DNA of 64,000 bases from Paraliobacillus sp. PM-2. Its GTDB lineage: Bacteria; Bacillota; Bacilli; Bacillales; Amphibacillaceae. The notes beneath the pieces were generated by a model, which was not told the origin of the DNA, searched no databases, and saw only the letters and a list, made by a program, of their open reading frames with translations. The DNA is taken from the NCBI RefSeq assembly GCF_001368815.1, contig NZ_CTEI01000001.1:372001-436000 (forward strand). The letters are read 5' to 3'. Positions 1,845 through 48,367 of this stretch are shown piece by piece. The number at the start of each line of letters is the position of its first letter. Positions within the stretch are counted from its first letter, which is position 1. The position numbers and the translations under genes were made by a program.

Positions 1845-4800
1845 TTATTTTTTTATTTTGTCCATTGTAATATAGAATGCAGGTAGTAACACTAACGTTA
1901 AGATCGTAGAGAACAACAATCCATATACAATAGAAACTGCTAGAGGTCTAAAAAGTACATCTCCTGTGAAAATGATAGGAACAAGCGCTGCAATAGATGT
2001 CAAGGTTGTTAAAATAATCGGTCTAACTCTTGCACGGCCTGCTTCTATAATTGCCTGTAGTACGGAATCATAAATATTTCGATTTTGTTCAATAAACTCA
2101 ATGAGTAAGATTGAATTTCGAACAACAATTCCTGACAAGGAAACAATACCTAATACTGCTAGGAAGCTTAATGGTTCACCAGAAATAAACAGCCCTACAA
2201 TGGCACCAGTTATCGCAAGAAATACGGTACTTGTAATTAATAAAGGTGTTAATAGCGAATTAAACTGGATAGCAATAGTTAAATAGATAAGAAATAGCAC
2301 AATAAAGAATAGTTTTGCTACTTCAACGAAAAAGGCTGTTTCTGCAGAAGCAGCACCTTCTTCTATAATTTGATAATCATCTGGTAAGTCTTCAGACAGA
2401 GAAGCAATGACTTTGTCTGCTTCTTCCGTAAATGTCTGTTCCTCACCGTCTACTTCATAACCTTCAATCGTAATGGTTCGATTTCCATTATAATGTGGAA
2501 TTGCTCCGATCTGATTACTTGCTTCTTTTGTTATAAAGGAATCATAAGATAATATTTTTGGTGGTGAAGTATTATCACTACTTGGTACCGCCAAGTTTAG
2601 TTCTGTTAGGTCTATCCCTTCTGCATTTCCATCATCTAATGACAATTGGATAGGTAATCGTTCTTCCCCATTGTCAAAGTTACCTAAAGGTATACCAATA
2701 TTGGCAAGTTGAAGTGTCCCAATAACTTGATTAGGATCTATTCCTTCACTAGCCAAAAATTCACGATCTAATTGATAAGTAATATAATTTTGTTCTTTGC
2801 TAGTATTTGATGTCACAATTTTGGCACTATCTAAATCTGCTAATTGCTGTTTTAAATCGTCTGCAATCGAAACAAGTTGCTCCACTTCAGGTCCTTGAAC
2901 CTTTACTTCTACACTTGGAGAGGGAGGCGGCCCAGATACAATGGTTTCTAAGAAGATTTCCACATTAGGAAAAGCCTCTCGTAATGGTGATTCCCATTCA
3001 TCAATAAAATTAGATGCACTTGTTGTCTCTCGATCAACCCGTACAACGAGTTGGCCTGTATTTTCACCAGTTCGTGTCATGCTAGAATTGAAAATACCAG
3101 GGAGTCCACTTCCTGCATAGGCAACGGTTTCCGTGATCTTATCTGATTGCTCAAGCAAATAGTTTTCCATCTCTTCTAATGTTTGATTGGTATCTTCTAT
3201 TGTAGTGCCTTGACTTAACCTTGCTGAAATAGTTACCTCCGCTCGATCAGCAGCAGGGAAAAATTCGAATGGAACTTTAAATGCTAATAACACTAATAAC
3301 AAACAAAGTACAACCCCTAAACTTACTGTTAACCAAGGTTTTTTCAATGTTGTCGGAATAATAGAATCAGCATAAAGCTTTTCGATCTTATCAAACAAGT
3401 GACCAAGTACCCCAACCCGTTTTTTCTTCCTTCTCTTATGTTTTTGTTTGTCTGTATTCTTTTGCTTCGTATATTGTACGGTTGGAATAAGTGTTAGAGC
3501 TAATACTGTAGATGCAAGAACCGTACAGATAAGTGCTAATGGTAATGCTCGAATAAAATCCCCGTTACTTCCAGAGAGAAAGGTTAAAGGGAAGAAACTG
3601 AAAACAATCATTAAAGTAGATGTAATAATAGAAACACCGACTTCACGTACGCCATTAATGGTTCCTTTTAGTGCAGGATCGCCTAATTGGAAACGACGTT
3701 GAATGTTATCATTGACCACAATTGCATCGTCAACAAGAATGCCAATAGCTACAATCATACCAATAATCGATATTTGATTTAAGTCTACTCCTGCATATGG
3801 TAAAGGAATTAAACCAACAATAATGGAAATTGGTATAGCTAATGCAACTAATATAGCTGAAGAAATAGGTAAACCAAGTAGCATGATAACTAATACAGCA
3901 ATTAATGAGATAACGAAAGAAGAAATCAGACTAGAATAGACTTCATTAATAACCGTACTTTGTGTATAAAATTGATCTACTGTAATAGCCTCAGGTAATT
4001 CAGCAGTTAACGTATCAACTTTATCTGTAATATTCGCCTGGATTTGTTCAATATTAACGCCTTCTTCGGCTTGGACAGTAATAGAGAGTGCATAGTTGTC
4101 GTCGTAACGAATAATATCTGAAGCTGGCTTGTTGATTTGTTCTATAGAAGCAACATCATGTAAATAAATCGCTTTGCCTGAAGCTGGACTGTTTGCAAGA
4201 TAAATATCTTTTAAATCTTCTAGGTTTTCATTTGAATTAATCGTTAATTGGTAAAGTGTGTTGCCTTCTTGTTCAGAACCAAGTGCCTTTGGAGAAGTAG
4301 CATTTGTGATTGCTGTTATCACTTGATTCGGTTGAATTTGGTTTTTGCCTAATGCTTCCGGGTCGATTGAAATAGACAATTGTTCATCGGGAAGTCCTTT
4401 TATTAAAAGACCTTCCACCCCATTAATAGAGGTGAGTTCTTCTTTCCAATGTTCTAACTGATCACGGAAGCTATACAATGATTGCTGATCTTCTGCTAAC
4501 AGATGATAGGTAGCGACGTTAGATTTAACTAAATCTGTCGAAACACTGGGCGTTTGTACTTCACTTGGAAATGATTTAGATGTTTCAGAAACGGTTTGTC
4601 TTATCGAACTATACACATTATTTGCATCTATACCACTATCTAAAGATAATGTAATAGTAGAAAAACCGGTAGTTGAAGCGGAAGACATTTCTGAGATGCC
4701 ATCAACATCTTCTAAGGCATCCTCCATTGGATTTGTAACCGTCTGTTCCATTTCTTTAGGTGTTGCTCCAGGATATACTGTAGAGATAGAAGCAATATTT

Positions 4801-30065: not shown

Positions 30066-31754
<1,689 letters not shown>

Positions 31755-32435: not shown

Positions 32436-32564
32436 AATTATAAGTTTTGTTGCACCTTTTTGTTGAAGTTGGTATTCTTATACTGTATCCAATCAACAAA
32501 CATATTTGACTGGCTATAGGGAATAGTATTTTTATCTTTACAAAATATCTAAGGAGGAACATTC

Positions 32565-33419
32565 ATGCCATTAGTATCAATGAAACAAATGTTAGAAGAT
32601 GCCAAAAAAGGCGGCTATGCAGTTGGGCAGTTTAACTTAAACAACTTAGAATATGGTCAAGCAATTCTACAAGCTGCTGAAGAAGAAAAATCTCCAGTAA
32701 TCATAGGGGTTTCAGAAGGTGCAGCTCGCTATATGGGTGGTTACAAAGTAGTAGTTGCGATGGTTGAATCATTAATGGAAGTATATGGTACTACTGTGCC
32801 GGTTGCTATTCATTTAGATCATGGTTCAAGCTTTGAGCAATGTGCAAAAGCAATTCATGCTGGATTTACTTCAGTAATGATCGACGCTTCTCATGACCCA
32901 TTTGAAGAAAATGTAGCAACTACATCAAAAGTAGTAGAACTTGCTCATTTCCATGGCGTATCTGTTGAAGCTGAATTGGGAACTGTTGGTGGACAAGAAG
33001 ATGATGTTTCAGGAAGCATTATTTATGCTGATCCAAAAGAATGTCAAGAACTTGTTGAGCGCACAGGAATTGACTGTCTAGCTCCAGCATTAGGTTCCGT
33101 ACATGGCCCTTACAAAGGTGAACCAAACTTAGGATTTAAAGAAATGGAAGAAATCGGTAAAGCAACTGGACTTCCACTTGTTTTACACGGAGGAACTGGT
33201 ATCCCGACCGCTGACATTAAACGTGCGATTTCTTATGCAACTTCAAAAATCAACGTTAATACAGAAAACCAAATTGCTCAGGCAGAAAAGGTTCGTCAAG
33301 TACTAGCTGAACAACCTGAACAATATGATCCACGTAAATACTTAGGACCTGGACGTGACGCGATTAAAGAAACAGTTATCGGTAAAATGCGTGAGTTCGG
33401 TTCATCTAACCAAGCATAA
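32565..33419 (+). CDS. fbaA: Class II fructose-1,6-bisphosphate aldolase FbaA
   Basis: A 284-residue zinc-dependent aldolase cleaving fructose-1,6-bisphosphate into DHAP and glyceraldehyde-3-phosphate in glycolysis, and the reverse in gluconeogenesis. Key motifs are [15 protein letters not shown] (catalytic Asp and zinc His), [30 protein letters not shown] (zinc His) and VLHGGTGIP (zinc His), then [10 protein letters not shown] for phosphate binding. ATG 32565 follows AAGGAGGAACATTC, a strong site. It is single, with a terminator after it. The cre-like site upstream suggests carbon control. Confidence 0.97.
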
Positions 33420-35136: not shown

Positions 35137-35468
35137 TTGAATAAAATAGAAGAACACGGTACGATAAAGAGGGTTTAATAATAAATCTTAAGGGAATGCT
35201 TGTTAAAAAGTATTCAAAACTTCTATTCTATTATAAATAATTTCCTTCACATCACTTCTTGGTAGAAACAAGTCATGTGCTTATTACATCTTCATAGAGA
35301 ACAATACAACACTGACAAAATACAAAACTTCAAAATCAAGAGGTATCCAAATAGAAATCATTAATCAAAAAACATAAATAAAAATAGATAAAACATTGAA
35401 ACGATGCATGTCATTTTAATTCAATGAAAAAATGCTCGTTGTAAAATAATAATAGGTGTGGTGATTGT
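35137..35468 (+). promoter_or_regulatory. rho promoter and long C-rich leader
   Basis: A candidate promoter is TTGAAT (35137-35142), a 17-base spacer and TACGAT (35160-35165), leaving a leader of about 300 bases. Within 35221-35340 I count 24 C against 10 G, with short C-containing pyrimidine patches and little self-pairing. This composition favours Rho loading. B. subtilis rho is known to be autoregulated through its leader. No open reading frame or terminator hairpin is evident. Confidence 0.5.
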
Positions 35469-39399: not shown

Positions 39400-40254
39400 A
39401 TGACACAGCCTAACTTACAAGAAGTCCTTCGTCGGGCTTCTCTTTTTTTAGAACAAAATAATAGAGAACCGCGTATAGCAGAACTATTGCTAATGCATCA
39501 TTTACAACTGGATAAAACACAATTACTTATGCAACTACGCCAATCAATAGCAGAACCAGTGTATCAAGCATATCAACGTGATATGGTTAAGCATGTTGAA
39601 ACAGGTGTACCTATTCAACATCTTATTGGATATGAATCTTTTTATGGTCGAAAATTCAATGTAAATAAAGATGTACTTATCCCAAGACCGGAAACGGAAG
39701 AACTTGTATTAGGCACACTTGAGAAAGTGAAGCAACTGAAACGACCCCTTCGAGTAGTGGATGTTGGTACAGGTAGTGGGATTATTGCGATTACATTAAA
39801 GCTAGAAGACCCAACCTTAGATGTACATGCACTAGATATCTCTGAAGCAGCATTAACAGTAGCGCAAGCAAATGCAAAGCAGCATCATGCAAACGTATCA
39901 TTTGCGCAAAGTGACTTTCTACAATCTTGGATTAATCAAGGGAATAAGGCAGATGTGATTATCTCCAACCCTCCTTATATTCCTTGGAAAGATAGTGACA
40001 CATTATCTGATACAGTGAAAAATTTTGATCCCTCATTAGCATTGTTTGCAGACGATAATGGCTTGTACGCTTATCAACAACTTATTGAACAAGCAGAACA
40101 AGTGTTATCCACATGTGGATTACTTGCCTTTGAAATAGGTTATCAACAAGGGGAAGAAGTAAAAGCACGTATTCAAGCAAAATTTCCTAATAGTGATGTA
40201 GAAATAAGAAAAGACATAAACGGAAAAGACAGAATGGTATTTGCAACATTGTAG
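39400..40254 (+). CDS. prmC: Release factor glutamine methyltransferase PrmC
   Basis: A 284-residue SAM-dependent N5-glutamine methyltransferase acting on the GGQ glutamine of RF1/RF2. The SAM site is in RVVDVGTGSGIIAITLKL and the catalytic NPPY in VIISNPPYIPWKDSD. The N-terminal helical domain (residues 1-85) binds the release factor (LIGYESFYGRKFNVNKDVLIPRPETEELV). ATG 39400 lies one base after the prfA stop; GGTGA inside prfA is the likely ribosome binding site. A perfect DnaA box (TTATCCACA) occurs inside the gene at 40105-40113. Confidence 0.95.
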   Translation: MTQPNLQEVLRRASLFLEQNNREPRIAELLLMHHLQLDKTQLLMQLRQSIAEPVYQAYQRDMVKHVETGVPIQHLIGYESFYGRKFNVNKDVLIPRPETEELVLGTLEKVKQLKRPLRVVDVGTGSGIIAITLKLEDPTLDVHALDISEAALTVAQANAKQHHANVSFAQSDFLQSWINQGNKADVIISNPPYIPWKDSDTLSDTVKNFDPSLALFADDNGLYAYQQLIEQAEQVLSTCGLLAFEIGYQQGEEVKARIQAKFPNSDVEIRKDINGKDRMVFATL

Positions 40255-40416: not shown

Positions 40417-41055
40417 ATGAAGAAACATATAGTTATTGTAATTATTTCATTTATAGGTTTATTTATTTTAGTCAATCAGTTGTGGATAAATCAAGAGGCC
40501 GCCGCAAGTGATTACCAAGTGATTCCGGATGAAGCCATACGTTTACGCATTTTAGCAAATAGTGATCAAGAAAAAGATCAATCGATAAAACGAGTAGTAA
40601 GGGATGAGGTTAATCAAGAAATAACAAAGTGGGTAGAAGAACTAGATTCTATTGAAGTTGCTAGAAAAGTAATTCAAGAACGTTTACCTGCCATCGAGAA
40701 AATTGTTGAACGAACATTAAAGCAAGAAAATATAGCAACGGATTATCAAGTCAATTATGGTAAAGAAGTAAACTTTCCTTCAAAAGTTTATGGGAAATAT
40801 GTTTACCCTGCAGGAGAGTATGAAGCGATCCTCATTACACTAGGGGAAGGAAAAGGTGCAAATTGGTGGTGCGTGTTATTTCCGCCATTATGTTTTCTTG
40901 ATTTTTCTAATGGGACAACGGTAGCTGCCGCAGAAGAACCTGAAGAATCCGAAGAACCTAAAGAACCTAAGGAATCCAGAGAAACAAAACCAATTCAAAC
41001 AGAGGAAGAAAAAGATGTAGAAGTGAGATTTTTTTTCTTAGAATGGTTTCGTTAA
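40417..41055 (+). CDS. spoIIR: Stage II sporulation protein R (SpoIIR)
   Basis: A 212-residue secreted signalling protein. Made in the forespore under sigma-F, SpoIIR is exported and activates the SpoIIGA protease in the mother cell, which processes pro-sigma-E. Visible: signal peptide or anchor at residues 5-25, then the conserved domain AIRLRILANSDQEKDQSIKRVVRDEVNQ, GKEVNFPSKVYGKYVYPAGEYEAILITLGEGKGANWWCVLFPPLCF. The C-terminal region holds an unusual Glu/Pro-rich stretch (EEPEESEEPKEPKESRETKP) before a short hydrophobic end. The frame opens at 40399, but GGGGAG with ATG 40417 sets the start. The gene is placed after prmC as in B. subtilis. Confidence 0.93.
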   Translation: MKKHIVIVIISFIGLFILVNQLWINQEAAASDYQVIPDEAIRLRILANSDQEKDQSIKRVVRDEVNQEITKWVEELDSIEVARKVIQERLPAIEKIVERTLKQENIATDYQVNYGKEVNFPSKVYGKYVYPAGEYEAILITLGEGKGANWWCVLFPPLCFLDFSNGTTVAAAEEPEESEEPKEPKESRETKPIQTEEEKDVEVRFFFLEWFR

Positions 41056-41122
41056 GGTATAATGAAACAAATCTATCATAGAAATAGTAGAAAGCTAGAT
41101 TTTCTATGAGGAGATGATTACA

Positions 41123-41536
41123 ATGGAATGTATAAAGGCAAGTGAACTGACAAGAGATGTTTGGGAAGAATTTTTTTATCATCAATTACCTGCAAATCTT
41201 ACAGAAGAAGATATTCATGCTTATGGCTATTTTATAAAAGAAGATGTGATGCATGCTTTCTTTATGCTAGTACCTGTGAAAGATAATGGTGTGCAATTAA
41301 AGCATTTATATATGAAAGAAAAATTAGCACCGATGTATATTCTTGCCATAATAGAAGTGTGTATTCAATTAGTAAAAACAAAGCAATTAAAGTACATGTT
41401 TATCTATAGTGAACAGGATGCATTAAATCAATTACTAAAACAATTACATTTTGAACCAGTCACATCACCACCAGATAATCAACAAAAGCCAGGTAAGTGG
41501 TGGGGAATAGTAGTAGATAACGCGGAAGTTTATTAA
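41123..41536 (+). CDS. Hypothetical protein in the YwlB position, possibly GNAT-like
   Basis: A 137-residue soluble protein I do not firmly recognise. It lies between spoIIR and ywlC, where B. subtilis has ywlB, annotated as an acetyltransferase. The order of strands and helices and the closing ALNQLLKQLHFEPV (like the GNAT GFxxv end) hint at a degenerate GNAT fold, but no acetyl-CoA loop (Q/R-x-x-G-x-G/A) is visible. GAGGAG at 41108-41113 fits ATG 41123; the in-frame ATG 41114 abuts the site. The DnaA-box cluster starts 5 bases after its stop. Confidence 0.5.
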   Translation: MECIKASELTRDVWEEFFYHQLPANLTEEDIHAYGYFIKEDVMHAFFMLVPVKDNGVQLKHLYMKEKLAPMYILAIIEVCIQLVKTKQLKYMFIYSEQDALNQLLKQLHFEPVTSPPDNQQKPGKWWGIVVDNAEVY

Positions 41537-41540
41537 CAGT

Positions 41541-41708
41541 TGTGGATAACCATTGTTGATAACTTGTTAATAATGCACTATAGTTAATAAAAATTATATG
41601 ATTAAAGTGAAAACGTAAACAGTTTACGGTGATTGGCAAATGTAAGTTGTTCACATCTGGATAACGTGTGGATAAGTTGTGATGTATTTGTTGATAACTT
41701 GTTAATAA
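41541..41708. promoter_or_regulatory. DnaA-box cluster upstream of ywlC
   Basis: The 168-base span holds two perfect DnaA boxes, TGTGGATAA at 41541-41549 and 41667-41675 (TTATCCACA on the other strand). One-mismatch boxes are at 41554-41562, 41656-41664 and 41689-41697, and two-mismatch boxes at 41565-41573 and 41700-41708. All of these have the same orientation, and several are exactly 11 bases apart. An exact 21-base direct repeat (41553-41573 and 41688-41708) contains two boxes. The ywlC upstream region is one of the known DnaA-bound clusters in B. subtilis, so this is probably its counterpart. Confidence 0.85.
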
Positions 41709-41723
41709 CAGAAAGGGATTCTT

Positions 41724-42761
41724 ATGGAAAGACAGACAAAATATTGGACAATCAGAGAATTGGATCAAAAAGGACAACAATCAATTAAAGAAGCTGCAGC
41801 TTTACTAAAAAAACAAGAATTAGTTGCTTTTCCAACAGAGACAGTATATGGATTAGGTGCTGATGCGACGAAGGAAACAGCTGTTTCAAAAATTTTTAAA
41901 GCAAAAGGACGTCCTTCAGACAATCCGTTGATTGTTCATCTAGCAGATATAGAACAAGTACCGCATTATGTGAAACGTGTGACCCCAATTGCGGAAAAAC
42001 TAATCAATACGTTTATGCCGGGGCCAATCACTGTCATTCTACCTAGTAATGAAAAAATTGCTACTAACGTTACTGCGGGCTTAGATACCCTCGGGTTACG
42101 TATTCCGGATCACCCCATTGCTAGAGCCTTATTAAGAGAAGCTGGACTTCCAATTGCAGCACCAAGTGCCAATACGTCTGGTAAACCTAGCCCAACTACT
42201 GCGATCCATGTCTTTCATGATTTAAATGGAAAGATAGCTGGGATTGTTGACAGTGCTTCTACAAACGTTGGAGTGGAATCGACTGTTGTTGATTGTACAG
42301 GAGATGTGCCCATCATATTACGACCTGGTGGGATCACGAGGGAGCAAATAGAAGAAGCTACTGGTGTAGTAACTGTTGATCCAACAAATGATCAGCAAAC
42401 AGATAAGCCAAAAGCCCCTGGTATGAAATACAATCACTATGAACCAGAAATGCCACTCTGGTTAGTTGATGGTACAAGTGCGTTTTTTCAAAAAGAAATT
42501 GACCGTCTAACAAAGCAAGGATTAAGGGTTGGAGTAATGGCAAGTGAGGAGTTAATTGGCAAATTACACGTTTCCAATAGTAGAATTTGTGGTTCGAAGT
42601 CAGATTTAACTACAATAGCTGTCCACTTATATGATACGCTTCGATCATTCCAAGCAAAGGATACCGATGTTATTTTAGGAGAAGTGTTTCCAAAACAAGG
42701 CATTGGTCAAGCAATTATGAATCGTTTAGAAAAAGCAGCATCAGAAATCATAAGACAATGA
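41724..42761 (+). CDS. ywlC: L-threonylcarbamoyladenylate synthase (Sua5/YwlC)
   Basis: A 345-residue enzyme making threonylcarbamoyl-AMP from threonine, bicarbonate and ATP, the first step of t6A tRNA modification at position 37. The YrdC core is residues 15-205 (VAFPTETVYGLGADA, KGRPSDNPLIVHL, GLDTLGLRIPDHPIAR, APSANTSGKPSPTTA). The C-terminal Sua5 domain follows from about 230 (KAPGMKYNHYEPEMPLWLVDG). The start ATG 41724 lies 15 bases after the DnaA-box cluster, so DnaA binding could influence its transcription. Terminator downstream. Confidence 0.95.
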   Translation: MERQTKYWTIRELDQKGQQSIKEAAALLKKQELVAFPTETVYGLGADATKETAVSKIFKAKGRPSDNPLIVHLADIEQVPHYVKRVTPIAEKLINTFMPGPITVILPSNEKIATNVTAGLDTLGLRIPDHPIARALLREAGLPIAAPSANTSGKPSPTTAIHVFHDLNGKIAGIVDSASTNVGVESTVVDCTGDVPIILRPGGITREQIEEATGVVTVDPTNDQQTDKPKAPGMKYNHYEPEMPLWLVDGTSAFFQKEIDRLTKQGLRVGVMASEELIGKLHVSNSRICGSKSDLTTIAVHLYDTLRSFQAKDTDVILGEVFPKQGIGQAIMNRLEKAASEIIRQ

Positions 42762-43915: not shown

Positions 43916-46900
43916 TTGAAGAATTATATTAAAAAAATAGCAATCTGTTTTATTGCAGTAATGGTGTTCATGCCGTCACTATTGACAAATTTTGCGGTGC
44001 CTATCCATGCAGTAGGGGATGAACCTATTTTCACGGCTTCTGGTTCAGAAATGGGGTCAACAGGTCCTGAGAAAGCATTTGATGGGCTTTATAACCGATA
44101 TGACAATCCTGATTCTAGATGGAGTAGTGAAGCATCATTAGCTTCAGAAGAGAATCCAAAATGGTTACAGGTTGAATACCCTGAACAAAAGACCTTTGAA
44201 GGGTTCAAGATACATTGGGAAAGAATAAATGTAAACGCTTATCGCATTGAAGTATCAACAGATGGCGATAACTTTGAAACAGTCTATGATTCAACAACGA
44301 ATAAAAAGCAATGGATTGAAACAGTGAAATTAGACGAAGCCGTTACTGCTAAAGTTGTTCGTTTAGTTATTACTGATTTTGATGAAACTGCTCCTAATAT
44401 TGACAAAAGTGTTACTTGGCCAACTGTATCTGTGTATGAATTCGAAGTATTAGAGAATTTAGATACGGTAGTAGTTGGAACAGACAATGTAGCAGTTGGA
44501 AAAGAGGCTACTGCTTCAAATGAAGAAGCTGGTACAGATTTTGTGGCTAGTAATACAATTGATGGCGATCTAACAACACGCTGGTCTACCGATAAAAGTG
44601 AAGACATTACCCCAAGAACGCTCACCATTGATCTACAGCATTTGACCCAATTACAATCTGTTATTATTAATTGGGAAAGAGAAAACCCAAACATTATTGC
44701 TTTTGATTTAAGTTATTCGGAGGACAACGAACAATACTTCCCCATTTATGAACAAACAGAGAAATCTGGTATACAACGTCAAATAGTGAATTTGCAAAAT
44801 AGTATAAATGCCAGATATATTAAACTACATGTGACAGAATATGATGGTGGTAGTAGTAACTGGCCAAATGTTGGCGTGAATGAAGTGGAAGCCTTTTCTA
44901 CACCTGTAGAGGAGTCACCAGATGAAATTACTTCATTAAATCAAATTACAACGCTTTCAGTCAATGAAGAAACAGGTGCATTAGATATTCCACAAGCATC
45001 GAATGGTACTATTTCGGTTGTTGGAAGCAATGCACAACCAGTTATTGATCTGAATGGTAACGTTTTCGAACCTTTGACTGATAAAGATGTGAAAGTAACA
45101 TTAGAATTAACAAAATCAGAAAGTACAGAAACAAAAGAATTTACCGTTTCTGTTAAAGGTAAATATGACAATGAAGGAACAAATGAAAAACCAAAAGTAA
45201 TTCCAGCCCTGCAAGAATGGTATGGATTAGAGGGAATGACTACGGTCGATACCGATACTACATTAGTAGTAAAAGATGCTTCTTTCACTAAAGCTGCTGA
45301 AATTTTTAAGCAGGACCTAGTTGAAATGGAAGATCTGGATTTAACCATTGGTACAGCAGAGACCAATGCGATTATCTTCCAAAAAGATGAAGCTGGTGTT
45401 TATGGTGAAGAAGGCTATCACATGGAAGTGAAAGACGGGAATATCGTCATAACTGCTGAGGAGTACACAGGGGCATTTTATGCAACAAGAACATTACTAC
45501 AACAGTTGAAACTTAGTGAAACAAATGAACTTCCTAACGGTTTGATTCGTGACTATCCAAAATATAAAGTTCGTGGATTCATGTTAGATGTTGGGCGAAA
45601 GTTTACGGATTTAGAGTATATGTACCAATATATGAAAAACATGAGTTATTATAAAATGAACGATTTTCAAGTTCATTTAAATGACAATGAATTAGAAATG
45701 GATTTGTATGGTTCGATCGAGAACGCTATCGAGAACGCTTATGCAGGTTTCCGACTAGAATCAGATATTGTGGGTGAAAATGGCGTAGCCCTTACTTCAG
45801 AAGATGGTTATTATACAAAAGAAGAATTCTCACAATTTATAACAGATGCTGGAAATTACGGTGTAGATATTGTTCCAGAATTCGATACACCAGGGCATGC
45901 GTTATCTATGGTGAAAGTAAGACCAGAACTTCACTATAAAGGGGAAATCATTAATAATAAGCCACCTGAAGAAGCGGCAGCAATGCTAGATTTATCACAT
46001 CCAGACACGATGCCTTTTATTAAATCAATCTATAATGAATATTTAGATGGTTCAGATCCTGTGTTCCAAGATATGCCAATTCATATCGGAAGTGATGAAT
46101 ATTATGGGGAAGCAGAAGCATATCGTGCATATGCAGATGAGATGCTTAAATTCATTCGTGATGAGAAGAATCACACTGTACGATTATGGGGAAGCCTATC
46201 CAATAAAACGGGTAGTACACCGGTAACATCAAAGGATGTTCAAATGCAAGTATGGAACACGTGGTGGGCAAATCCGAATCAGATGCTTGAACAAGGCTAT
46301 GACATTATCAACATTGATGATGGCCAGATCTATATTGTACCAAGAGCGGGATACTATAACGATCGTTTGAATCCGGAACGTTTATACAATAACTATCAAC
46401 CAAATAAGTTTTCAAATGGGACAATTGTCAATGAATCAAGTCCTCAATTCTTAGGCGGTATGTTTGCTCTTTGGAATGATAAGATCGGCAAACTTGAGAA
46501 TGGTATTACTACTTATGACATGTTTGACCGCATATTTGAAGCTATCCCTGTTATGGCACAAAAGAATTGGGGAAGTAGTACAGAAGATATGCCTTATGCT
46601 TCATTTGCAGAATTAGCACAAAATACAAACCTAGCTCCTGAAACAAATCCGTTTTATGAGGTACCAACGGTAGAAGATACGGTACTTGATTATGATTTCT
46701 CACAAAGTACAGTAGACCAAAGTAAAAATGGGTATGATATCAAAGACACAGTCAATGCCGACGTGGTAGAAGGACAAGGGTTACAGCTACATGCTAATGA
46801 AAGTTATGTAACTACAGGACTAACCAATCTAGGCCCTAGCGCTGTAATGAATGTAACACTGACTTTGGATGACACAGATGGTACACAAATTTTAGCGGAA

Positions 46901-48367
46901 ACAGTTAACCATGGCTTATTAGATGGTTTAGCATCTGAAGACTATGCTACGCTATATGCGGTAAATGAGGATGGATATGTAGGATACGATTTTGGTAACC
47001 TATCTTATTCTTTCAATCACAAATTAGTTGCAGGTGAACAAACCACACTAACCTTCATTACCGATATGGAGAAAACGAGATTATTAGTAAATGGTGATGA
47101 GGTAGCGCTTACTGAAGATACAAGTATGCCATACAATACACTTGTATTGCCACTTGAGCGAATTGGAAGTGCAACCGATGCATTAGATGGTACCATTTCA
47201 ACATTTAATGTCACAAAGGGTAAATATATTGATCCAACAAAGATAGACCCTAGTACAATGACAATCACCGCTTCAAGTGAAGAAAAAAATCAAAGTAATA
47301 CTTCTGTAGAAGGACCAATTGAACTTGCATTTGATAATGATACAGACACGATTTGGCATAGTGAATGGGATAAAAATCCTCCACTACCATACGAGGTGAA
47401 CTTGGAATTATCAGAAGAAACGAACTTGGATAAATTCCTTTATACACCACGTAAAGGTGGCGCTGATGGAGCTGCTAATGGTTTAATCACAGCATATCGA
47501 ATGGAAGTAAGTACAGATGGTGAAAATTATCAAGAAGTTGCTTCAGGTAATTGGGAAGCAAATTCTATCGTTAAGAACATTGATTTAAACGGTGTAAATG
47601 CAAAATATGTTCGTTTTATTGTAGAAGACGGTGTCAATGGTTTTGCCAGTGCTGCAGAATTTTCATTGCACACACCAGACACACCAGAACCAGTTGAACC
47701 AGTTCTAACGGTAAAAGATGCAACAATCAAAGCAGGAGAATCGTTAGACTTACGCTCATTAATTACAGAAGCCACAGATGAGGCGGGAGAAGAAGCCACA
47801 GAAGCGGTAGTAATTGATGAAGGAGACTATGATGCATCCGTGCCAGGAACGTATACAATCACCTATACATTAGGAGATGTAGAACAAACAGCAACGGTGA
47901 CGGTAGAAGAAGCAGACACACCAGAACCAGTTGAACCAGTTCTAACGGTAAAAGATGCAACAATCAAAGCAGGAGACTCGTTAGACTTACGCTCATTAAT
48001 TACAGAAGCCGCAGATGAGGCAGGCGAAGAAGCCACAGAAGCGGTAGTAATTGATGAAGGAGACTATGATGCATCCGTACCAGGAACGTATACAATCACC
48101 TATACATTAGGAGATGTAGAACAAACAGCAACGGTGACGGTAGAAGAAGCAGATACACCAGATCCAGTAGATCCAGGTGATTCTGATGACTCCGATGACT
48201 CAACTACTGACAAAGAAGAATCAGATCAAGATTCAAATCAGTCAGATAGTGAGGAAGAATTACCTGAAACAAGCACATCTATCTTTAATAGTCTATTTAT
48301 TGGTTTAATCCTATTAGTAATAGGTGGTGCAGCTTTTGTCTTATTAAGAAGAAGATCTCATTCTTAA
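43916..48367 (+). CDS. Cell-wall-anchored GH20 beta-N-acetylhexosaminidase, multi-domain
   Basis: A 1483-residue surface enzyme. In order: signal peptide (1-33); two discoidin-type carbohydrate-binding domains (about 40-185 and 190-335); an Ig-like strand region; a GH20b-like domain (about 430-545); the GH20 catalytic barrel (about 548-900) with FDTPGHALS and the catalytic Asp727-Glu728 in HIGSDEYYG; a LamG-like domain (about 920-1110); a third discoidin domain (1112-1252); two 79-residue repeats (1255-1333, 1334-1412); an acidic Asp/Ser linker; and LPETS at 1449 with a membrane helix and RRRSHS tail. It should cleave terminal GlcNAc/GalNAc from external glycans. LPETS fits the LPDT[S/A] signals used by Bacillus class D sortase. 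TTG 43916 follows AAAGGGAGG. The gene is absent from this locus in B. subtilis. Confidence 0.88.
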   Translation: MKNYIKKIAICFIAVMVFMPSLLTNFAVPIHAVGDEPIFTASGSEMGSTGPEKAFDGLYNRYDNPDSRWSSEASLASEENPKWLQVEYPEQKTFEGFKIHWERINVNAYRIEVSTDGDNFETVYDSTTNKKQWIETVKLDEAVTAKVVRLVITDFDETAPNIDKSVTWPTVSVYEFEVLENLDTVVVGTDNVAVGKEATASNEEAGTDFVASNTIDGDLTTRWSTDKSEDITPRTLTIDLQHLTQLQSVIINWERENPNIIAFDLSYSEDNEQYFPIYEQTEKSGIQRQIVNLQNSINARYIKLHVTEYDGGSSNWPNVGVNEVEAFSTPVEESPDEITSLNQITTLSVNEETGALDIPQASNGTISVVGSNAQPVIDLNGNVFEPLTDKDVKVTLELTKSESTETKEFTVSVKGKYDNEGTNEKPKVIPALQEWYGLEGMTTVDTDTTLVVKDASFTKAAEIFKQDLVEMEDLDLTIGTAETNAIIFQKDEAGVYGEEGYHMEVKDGNIVITAEEYTGAFYATRTLLQQLKLSETNELPNGLIRDYPKYKVRGFMLDVGRKFTDLEYMYQYMKNMSYYKMNDFQVHLNDNELEMDLYGSIENAIENAYAGFRLESDIVGENGVALTSEDGYYTKEEFSQFITDAGNYGVDIVPEFDTPGHALSMVKVRPELHYKGEIINNKPPEEAAAMLDLSHPDTMPFIKSIYNEYLDGSDPVFQDMPIHIGSDEYYGEAEAYRAYADEMLKFIRDEKNHTVRLWGSLSNKTGSTPVTSKDVQMQVWNTWWANPNQMLEQGYDIINIDDGQIYIVPRAGYYNDRLNPERLYNNYQPNKFSNGTIVNESSPQFLGGMFALWNDKIGKLENGITTYDMFDRIFEAIPVMAQKNWGSSTEDMPYASFAELAQNTNLAPETNPFYEVPTVEDTVLDYDFSQSTVDQSKNGYDIKDTVNADVVEGQGLQLHANESYVTTGLTNLGPSAVMNVTLTLDDTDGTQILAETVNHGLLDGLASEDYATLYAVNEDGYVGYDFGNLSYSFNHKLVAGEQTTLTFITDMEKTRLLVNGDEVALTEDTSMPYNTLVLPLERIGSATDALDGTISTFNVTKGKYIDPTKIDPSTMTITASSEEKNQSNTSVEGPIELAFDNDTDTIWHSEWDKNPPLPYEVNLELSEETNLDKFLYTPRKGGADGAANGLITAYRMEVSTDGENYQEVASGNWEANSIVKNIDLNGVNAKYVRFIVEDGVNGFASAAEFSLHTPDTPEPVEPVLTVKDATIKAGESLDLRSLITEATDEAGEEATEAVVIDEGDYDASVPGTYTITYTLGDVEQTATVTVEEADTPEPVEPVLTVKDATIKAGDSLDLRSLITEAADEAGEEATEAVVIDEGDYDASVPGTYTITYTLGDVEQTATVTVEEADTPDPVDPGDSDDSDDSTTDKEESDQDSNQSDSEEELPETSTSIFNSLFIGLILLVIGGAAFVLLRRRSHS
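47678..48151 (+). repeat. Two tandem 237-bp repeats inside the GH20 gene
   Basis: Copies 47678-47914 and 47915-48151 are nearly identical at DNA level (a handful of differences, e.g. GAATCG/GACTCG and ACAGAT/GCAGAT). Each encodes a 79-residue Ig-like stalk module containing EPVEPVLTVKDATIKAG and PGTYTITYTLGDVEQTATV. A third copy starts (48152) but turns into the acidic linker. Confidence 0.95.

Follow-up and report, generated by a model that had tools for sequence, protein, structure and literature searches.

A DnaA-box array beside ywlC in Paraliobacillus sp. PM-2, counterpart of a Bacillus subtilis DnaA-binding region, is widely retained across its order

Why is an intergenic stretch outside the replication origin crowded with DnaA boxes, and is it the binding of DnaA or the control of the neighbouring gene that keeps them there? 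We addressed this question in a 64,000-nucleotide stretch of the Paraliobacillus sp. PM-2 genome (C1:372001-436000, hereafter the window), in which a cluster of such boxes occupies positions 41541-41708 (C1:413541-413708). The array is the counterpart of the ywlB/ywlC DnaA-binding region of Bacillus subtilis and thus of a known kind, and it has probably been retained for DnaA binding, chiefly to titrate the protein near oriC and secondarily to repress ywlC. The genes around it run in the order prmC-like (PF17827), spoIIR (PF09551), ywlB-position gene, ywlC (Sua5/YrdC) and mntP-type, and the last two of the first four are separated by a gap of 187 bases (41537-41723). The ywlB-position gene had no Pfam match at 1e-3; of 140 loci, 109 (the window's included) have a gene ahead of ywlC that matches a profile grown from genes in this position, and the name ywlB denotes position together with this profile, with no database match behind it. 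For YwlC, the best named protein matches were from Paraliobacillus salinarum (79%), P. ryukyuensis (74%) and P. quinghaiensis (69%). A full-length dnaA gene (PF00308) lies on the minus strand of the same contig (C1:31026-32378) with box clusters on both sides (30888-30989 and 32501-32840), which places the ywlC cluster about 380 kb from oriC, outside it and in the same part of the chromosome. Further along the window, positions 43916-48367 encode a protein of 1483 aa that combines a glycosyl hydrolase family 20 core with F5/8 type C and Ig-like domains. Its C-terminus, read from the sequence, resembles a cell-wall anchor, with LPETS followed by hydrophobic residues and a basic tail. The features of the ywlC locus are as follows.

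41114-41536, plus strand: ywlB-position gene, open reading frame of 140 aa
41530-41538, plus strand: DnaA box TTATTAACA, one mismatch to TTATNCACA, overlapping the stop codon of the ywlB-position gene
41541-41549, minus strand: perfect DnaA box TTATCCACA
41553-41573, no strand assigned: exact 21-base direct repeat TTGTTGATAACTTGTTAATAA, copy 1
41554-41562, minus strand: DnaA box TTATCAACA, in copy 1 of the repeat
41556-41584, plus strand: candidate sigma-A-like promoter TTGATA-17-TATAGT, its -35 overlapping the box at 41554 (weak; two found against 1.7 expected)
41565-41573, minus strand: weak DnaA box TTATTAACA, in copy 1 of the repeat
41647-41655, plus strand: DnaA box TTGTTCACA, inside the interval, one mismatch to TTATNCACA
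41656-41664, minus strand: DnaA box TTATCCAGA
41667-41675, minus strand: perfect DnaA box TTATCCACA
41688-41708, no strand assigned: exact 21-base direct repeat TTGTTGATAACTTGTTAATAA, copy 2
41689-41697, minus strand: DnaA box TTATCAACA, in copy 2 of the repeat
41700-41708, minus strand: weak DnaA box TTATTAACA, in copy 2 of the repeat
41711-41718, plus strand: ribosome-binding-like sequence GAAAGGGA before the ywlC start, read from the letters
41724-42761, plus strand: ywlC, threonylcarbamoyl-AMP synthase (Sua5/YrdC) of 345 aa (PF01300, 4e-61; PF03481, 1e-34)

Boxes were defined in two ways, by the consensus TTATNCACA with up to one mismatch counted and by the strict form TTATCCACA. Under the consensus, eight boxes fall within 41537-41723 and a ninth overlaps the ywlB stop. 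Seven minus-strand boxes form two phased groups (41541, 41554 and 41565; 41656, 41667, 41689 and 41700), and against the strict form these comprise two perfect, three one-mismatch and two two-mismatch sites, as an earlier note on this DNA had listed them; its coordinates and start spacings (13 and 11 bases in one group; 11 and 11 in the other) were also right, the two steps of 11 in the second group lying on either side of a step of 22. That note had placed all boxes in one orientation, which is correct for the seven it listed but not for the cluster, from which it had omitted the plus-strand boxes at 41530 and 41647. The succession of a plus box, 11 bases, a minus box, 13 bases and a further minus box recurs in L031, L020, L039, L040, L042 and L044 among the 18 loci listed.

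If the cluster were a chance product of AT-rich DNA, it would have arisen from an intergenic stretch of 30% GC in a genome where the box is not over-represented (TTATCCACA at 45 sites against 50 for the reversed pattern; TTATNCACA with up to one mismatch at 4171 against 4428). The excess in the interval is a local one. Across 5000 dinucleotide shuffles the mean was 0.73 boxes and the maximum 5, so none reached the eight observed, and enrichment over shuffled sequence, proposed beforehand as a check, was borne out. None of 1000 permuted consensuses attained eight boxes in the interval either, and 200-base windows of the cluster had the top score in the 64 kb window. Together with the retention of the cluster in 114 of 120 relatives described below, the shuffles rule out a chance origin, to which we assign practically no probability. 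Two further perfect boxes were seen at 40105-40113 and 40481-40489, within the prmC-like gene and early spoIIR, and four of the 45 TTATCCACA sites of the genome fall inside 1.6 kb around the ywlC cluster.

The exact repetition of the 21-base unit at 41553 and 41688, 135 bases apart, was confirmed. The idea that it is a duplicated module of varying number was rejected, as both places exist with diverged letters in three sister species. At the two positions these have either two boxes or a single one whose partner is degenerate, with the last box gone in L013, and no exact repeat of at least 14 bases was found in their corresponding stretch. Since both positions are present yet diverged in the sisters, the two positions are likely ancestral in the genus, and exact 21-base identity is confined to this species among the four compared. 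At the place matching the box at 41667, L014 and L015 have a perfect box and L013 the one-mismatch form TTATCAACA.

Retention in related genomes was examined in windows of 270 bases, in which each perfect box counted 3 and each one-mismatch box 1. A cluster was defined as a score of at least 6, a value that had a frequency of 0.0005 in a background of 19,299 windows lying over 2 kb away from ywlC. Near ywlC (-1400 to +130), this score was reached in 114 of 120 genomes of the order, whereas a control stretch attained it in 1 of 120, the sample being 120 of 149 other genomes and mostly the top of the similarity list. With one genome per family, 37 of 39 had a ywlC cluster and none a control cluster, so the retention named in the earlier note as a check was found. 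In other orders, 17 of 24 genomes had a cluster and 7 had none, these 24 being the best-matching genomes rather than a random draw. The 270 bases at ywlC formed the single best window in 92 of the 120 stretches, with two ties. Six of the 120 genomes were without a cluster (G013, G014, G086, G095, G116 and G123; loci L033, L071, L126, L143, L146 and L150), and G013 (L033) sits in the family of the window itself. This genome was also without a cluster at rlmH (L266) and kept the one at yqeG (L235).

Conservation within the array was concentrated in the boxes. When the window was aligned with its Paraliobacillus sisters L014 and L015, 53 of 74 box columns were identical in all three as opposed to 29 of 113 other columns (P = 5e-10; box columns here, as in the alignment of detached clusters below, were defined from one aligned sequence). 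Among one-per-family genomes, 69 of 148 same-strand pairs 9-55 bases apart were in phase with about 10.6 bases (47% versus 23% for a uniform distribution), with spacing peaks at 12, 21 and 33, and for opposite-strand pairs helical phasing was rarer than under a uniform distribution (20 of 189). A single fixed geometry for all genera was rejected, since across 109 loci the offsets from the ywlB stop shared no more than weak peaks.

In many genera the array also extends into ywlC itself. Of 136 loci, three with a non-matching motif being left out of this count, 91 had a perfect box downstream of the ywlC start codon and ahead of the conserved FPTET motif, and many of the loci L046-L151 have boxes in the first 100 bases of ywlC. 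The codons chosen there spell boxes: of 97 VD[KN] sites, 75 were encoded by the full TGTGGATAA, where the codon usage of the individual genes predicts 5.3, and of 54 YP[QH] sites, 41 were encoded by TTATCCACA, where 4.5 are predicted. The 139- and 140-locus sets behind these counts include at least three species in duplicate (L024/L032, L028/L034 and L026/L035) and leave out the short duplicates L010-L012. One-per-family figures, which are free of the double-counted species, gave 29 of 38 against 2.1 for VD[KN], 13 of 18 against 1.4 for YP[QH] and a perfect box within the N-terminal ywlC codons in 31 of 38. In the rest of YwlC, VD was written as GTGGAT in 137 of 452 instances. In other orders, 13 of 24 loci had a perfect box within the last 40 codons before the FPTET motif. 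The Paraliobacillus window and its three sisters had no box past the ywlC start codon within the stretch scanned. Among the open-licence papers listed, supplements aside, none was on boxes within ywlC codons. As the array enters its codons, it is tied to ywlC in many genera, which keeps repression alive beside titration.

Separation of the two functions is offered by genomes in which the cluster has become detached, that is, reached only when the search extends more than 300 bases upstream of ywlC. Six of the 120 genomes were of this type (G036, G076, G108, G135, G143 and G149), with near scores of 0-3 and wide scores of 10-16. In four of them, all of one genus (G036, G076, G108 and G135), a minus-strand OsmC-family gene, assigned by Pfam for two of the four proteins and by likeness for the other two, lies between cluster and ywlC with its 3' end towards the cluster (L039, L040, L042 and L044). 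The cluster at these loci begins 1 to 6 bases past the ywlB stop and follows the order + 11 - 13 - 21 - 18 +, of which Aquibacillus koreensis (L031) has the part + 11 - 13 - 21 -. All five boxes are present in all four species and 41 of 45 box columns are identical, a box-by-box case that comprises one genus and four species in two similar pairs; non-box columns were identical at 14 of 33 positions in the same stretch, 24 of 122 in the next and 20 of 120 in the one after that. Small ORFs of 71-120 aa were seen in or near the gap of these four displaced loci, and the gene that stands between cluster and ywlC in Gracilibacillus massiliensis (L019) encodes an IS200-type transposase. For a detached cluster, control of ywlC through promoter occupancy is unlikely, yet the boxes have been kept, and the comparative data favour a DnaA-binding role, rather than control of ywlC, as what would keep the cluster. 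Weighing against this reading are the small number of displaced clusters, the genomes that have no cluster (six of 120 in the order, seven of 24 in other orders) and the out-of-phase opposite-strand pairs. Order-wide retention, conserved box columns and persistence where ywlC is displaced lend support to the earlier proposal that selection acts on the cluster itself.

The array could instead be chiefly a DnaA-responsive repressor of ywlC that couples threonylcarbamoyl-AMP synthase, and so tRNA t6A, to the DnaA level or replication state, with titration as a by-product. Repression of ywlC by DnaA has been reported for B. subtilis (PMC4447404, PMC12112137), in which a mutant with roughly doubled DnaA is described as having lower ywlC-lacZ expression (PMC12112137), and the array abuts ywlC and enters its coding region with box-specific codons at the loci counted above; in Paraliobacillus, the final box stops two bases short of the ribosome-binding-like sequence of ywlC. 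We nevertheless regard this explanation as rather unlikely, for clusters with near-unchanged boxes persist where another gene intervenes, and ywlC itself has few boxes nearby in the six displaced genomes. Sigma-A-like candidates moreover overlap boxes in 33 of 102 loci, below the 49 expected by chance, and promoter occlusion as a general rule gains no support from them, although promoter guesses of this kind are poor.

Another DnaA function, as a nucleotide-exchange or hydrolysis site comparable to E. coli datA or DARS, or as a chromosome-organising site, would account for the fixed + 11 - 13 - 21 - 18 + order of four displaced loci, found partly in L031 and L020, which exceeds the needs of a plain sink; the overall geometry varies between genera, however, and B. 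subtilis is reported to be without datA, DARS1, DARS2 and IHF (PMC13220808), and we consider such a role improbable. A second replication origin or unwinding site would share tandem boxes with oriC, but GC skew was positive in all eight 8-kb bins (0.044 to 0.149) with no sign change at 41.6 kb, and box clusters already flank dnaA, so that this candidate was disfavoured and has only a very slight probability.

Under the preferred reading, in which the array is a DnaA site that mainly titrates, DnaA would almost certainly bind the Paraliobacillus cluster, by analogy with B. subtilis. Judging from the spacing and the known cooperativity of DnaA, the protein would form rows along the phased same-strand boxes, nucleated on the perfect boxes at 41541 and 41667, and would spread through the weak boxes in steps of 11 to 13 bases. 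Lying about 380 kb from oriC, the cluster is copied early; if events follow those in B. subtilis, the new copies would bind DnaA soon after initiation and the next round would be restrained. Occupancy beside the ywlC start may also lower ywlC transcription, as reported in B. subtilis. Titration by the ywlC cluster is inferred from B. subtilis deletion work as cited in reviews: deletion of six clusters outside oriC led to early initiation, which was read as sensitivity to free DnaA (PMC5295017, PMC13220808). Given that the table in PMC4447404 has six strong regions outside oriC, the ywlC region would be one of the six deleted by Okumura 2012. According to a statement in PMC5295017, B. subtilis clusters are also without a significant role in initiation control, and these reviews leave open how much the clusters weigh in that control (PMC5295017, PMC13220808). 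Natural strains with detached clusters would make titration and ywlC repression separable.

The ywlC cluster belongs to a genome-wide set. In the window genome, further clusters are found before trmE (35303-35383, three perfect boxes), at yqeG (1198937-1199025, five boxes) and at tsaD (1822078-1822278, nine boxes), and no box cluster was detected within 6 kb around rlmH. Among relatives, a score of at least 6 was reached at tsaD and trmE in 26 of 30 genomes each and at yqeG and rlmH in 28 of 30 each, the 30 being the best-matching of 61 genomes in each case and the score that of the highest-scoring window of 270 bases in a region made up of the gene and at most 1.5 kb of flanking sequence to either side. 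Several Bacilli clusters adjoin RNA-modification genes, namely tsaC/ywlC, tsaD, mnmE and rlmH (loci L152-L211 and L245-L274; window position 41724). A broader proposal, which we put forward tentatively and at somewhat less than even probability, is that the array is an autonomous DnaA site across Bacilli that survives being cut off from ywlC and often invades the reading frame, where the boxes largely dictate a variable YwlC N-terminus (VDK, VDN, YPQ). If so, the clusters beside tsaD, mnmE and rlmH might couple the control of replication to the translation machinery. Whilst the kind of cluster is known, the comparative evidence is new, and retention, conservation of detached boxes and box-spelling codons are evolutionary evidence of selection for DnaA binding.

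The system against which this locus is to be read is that of B. subtilis, in which region 6, described as 'upstream of ywlC; downstream of ywlB', has nine sites and is listed among the regions most strongly bound by DnaA in vitro, with an apparent Kd of 0.25 uM for ATP-DnaA and 0.45 uM for the ADP form (PMC4447404). The gene order and box cluster of the window match that description, in keeping with the earlier identification of the ywlC upstream region as a DnaA-bound cluster of B. subtilis. Further strong regions given in the same source are gcp/ydiF, trmE/jag, yqeG/sda and yydA (PMC4447404). The array is a DnaA-box locus outside oriC that would restrain initiation, as datA of E. coli does (PMC5295017), whereas datA acts together with IHF, a factor reported to be absent from B. 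subtilis (PMC5295017, PMC13220808). Compared with region 6, which is known here by its description rather than its letters, the Paraliobacillus cluster has nearly all boxes pointing one way and an exact 21-base repeat, and the two are alike in having the same gene neighbours and a similar number of boxes, nine in 300 bp by the matrix of PMC4447404 in B. subtilis and, when up to one mismatch is allowed, eight in 187 bp in Paraliobacillus.
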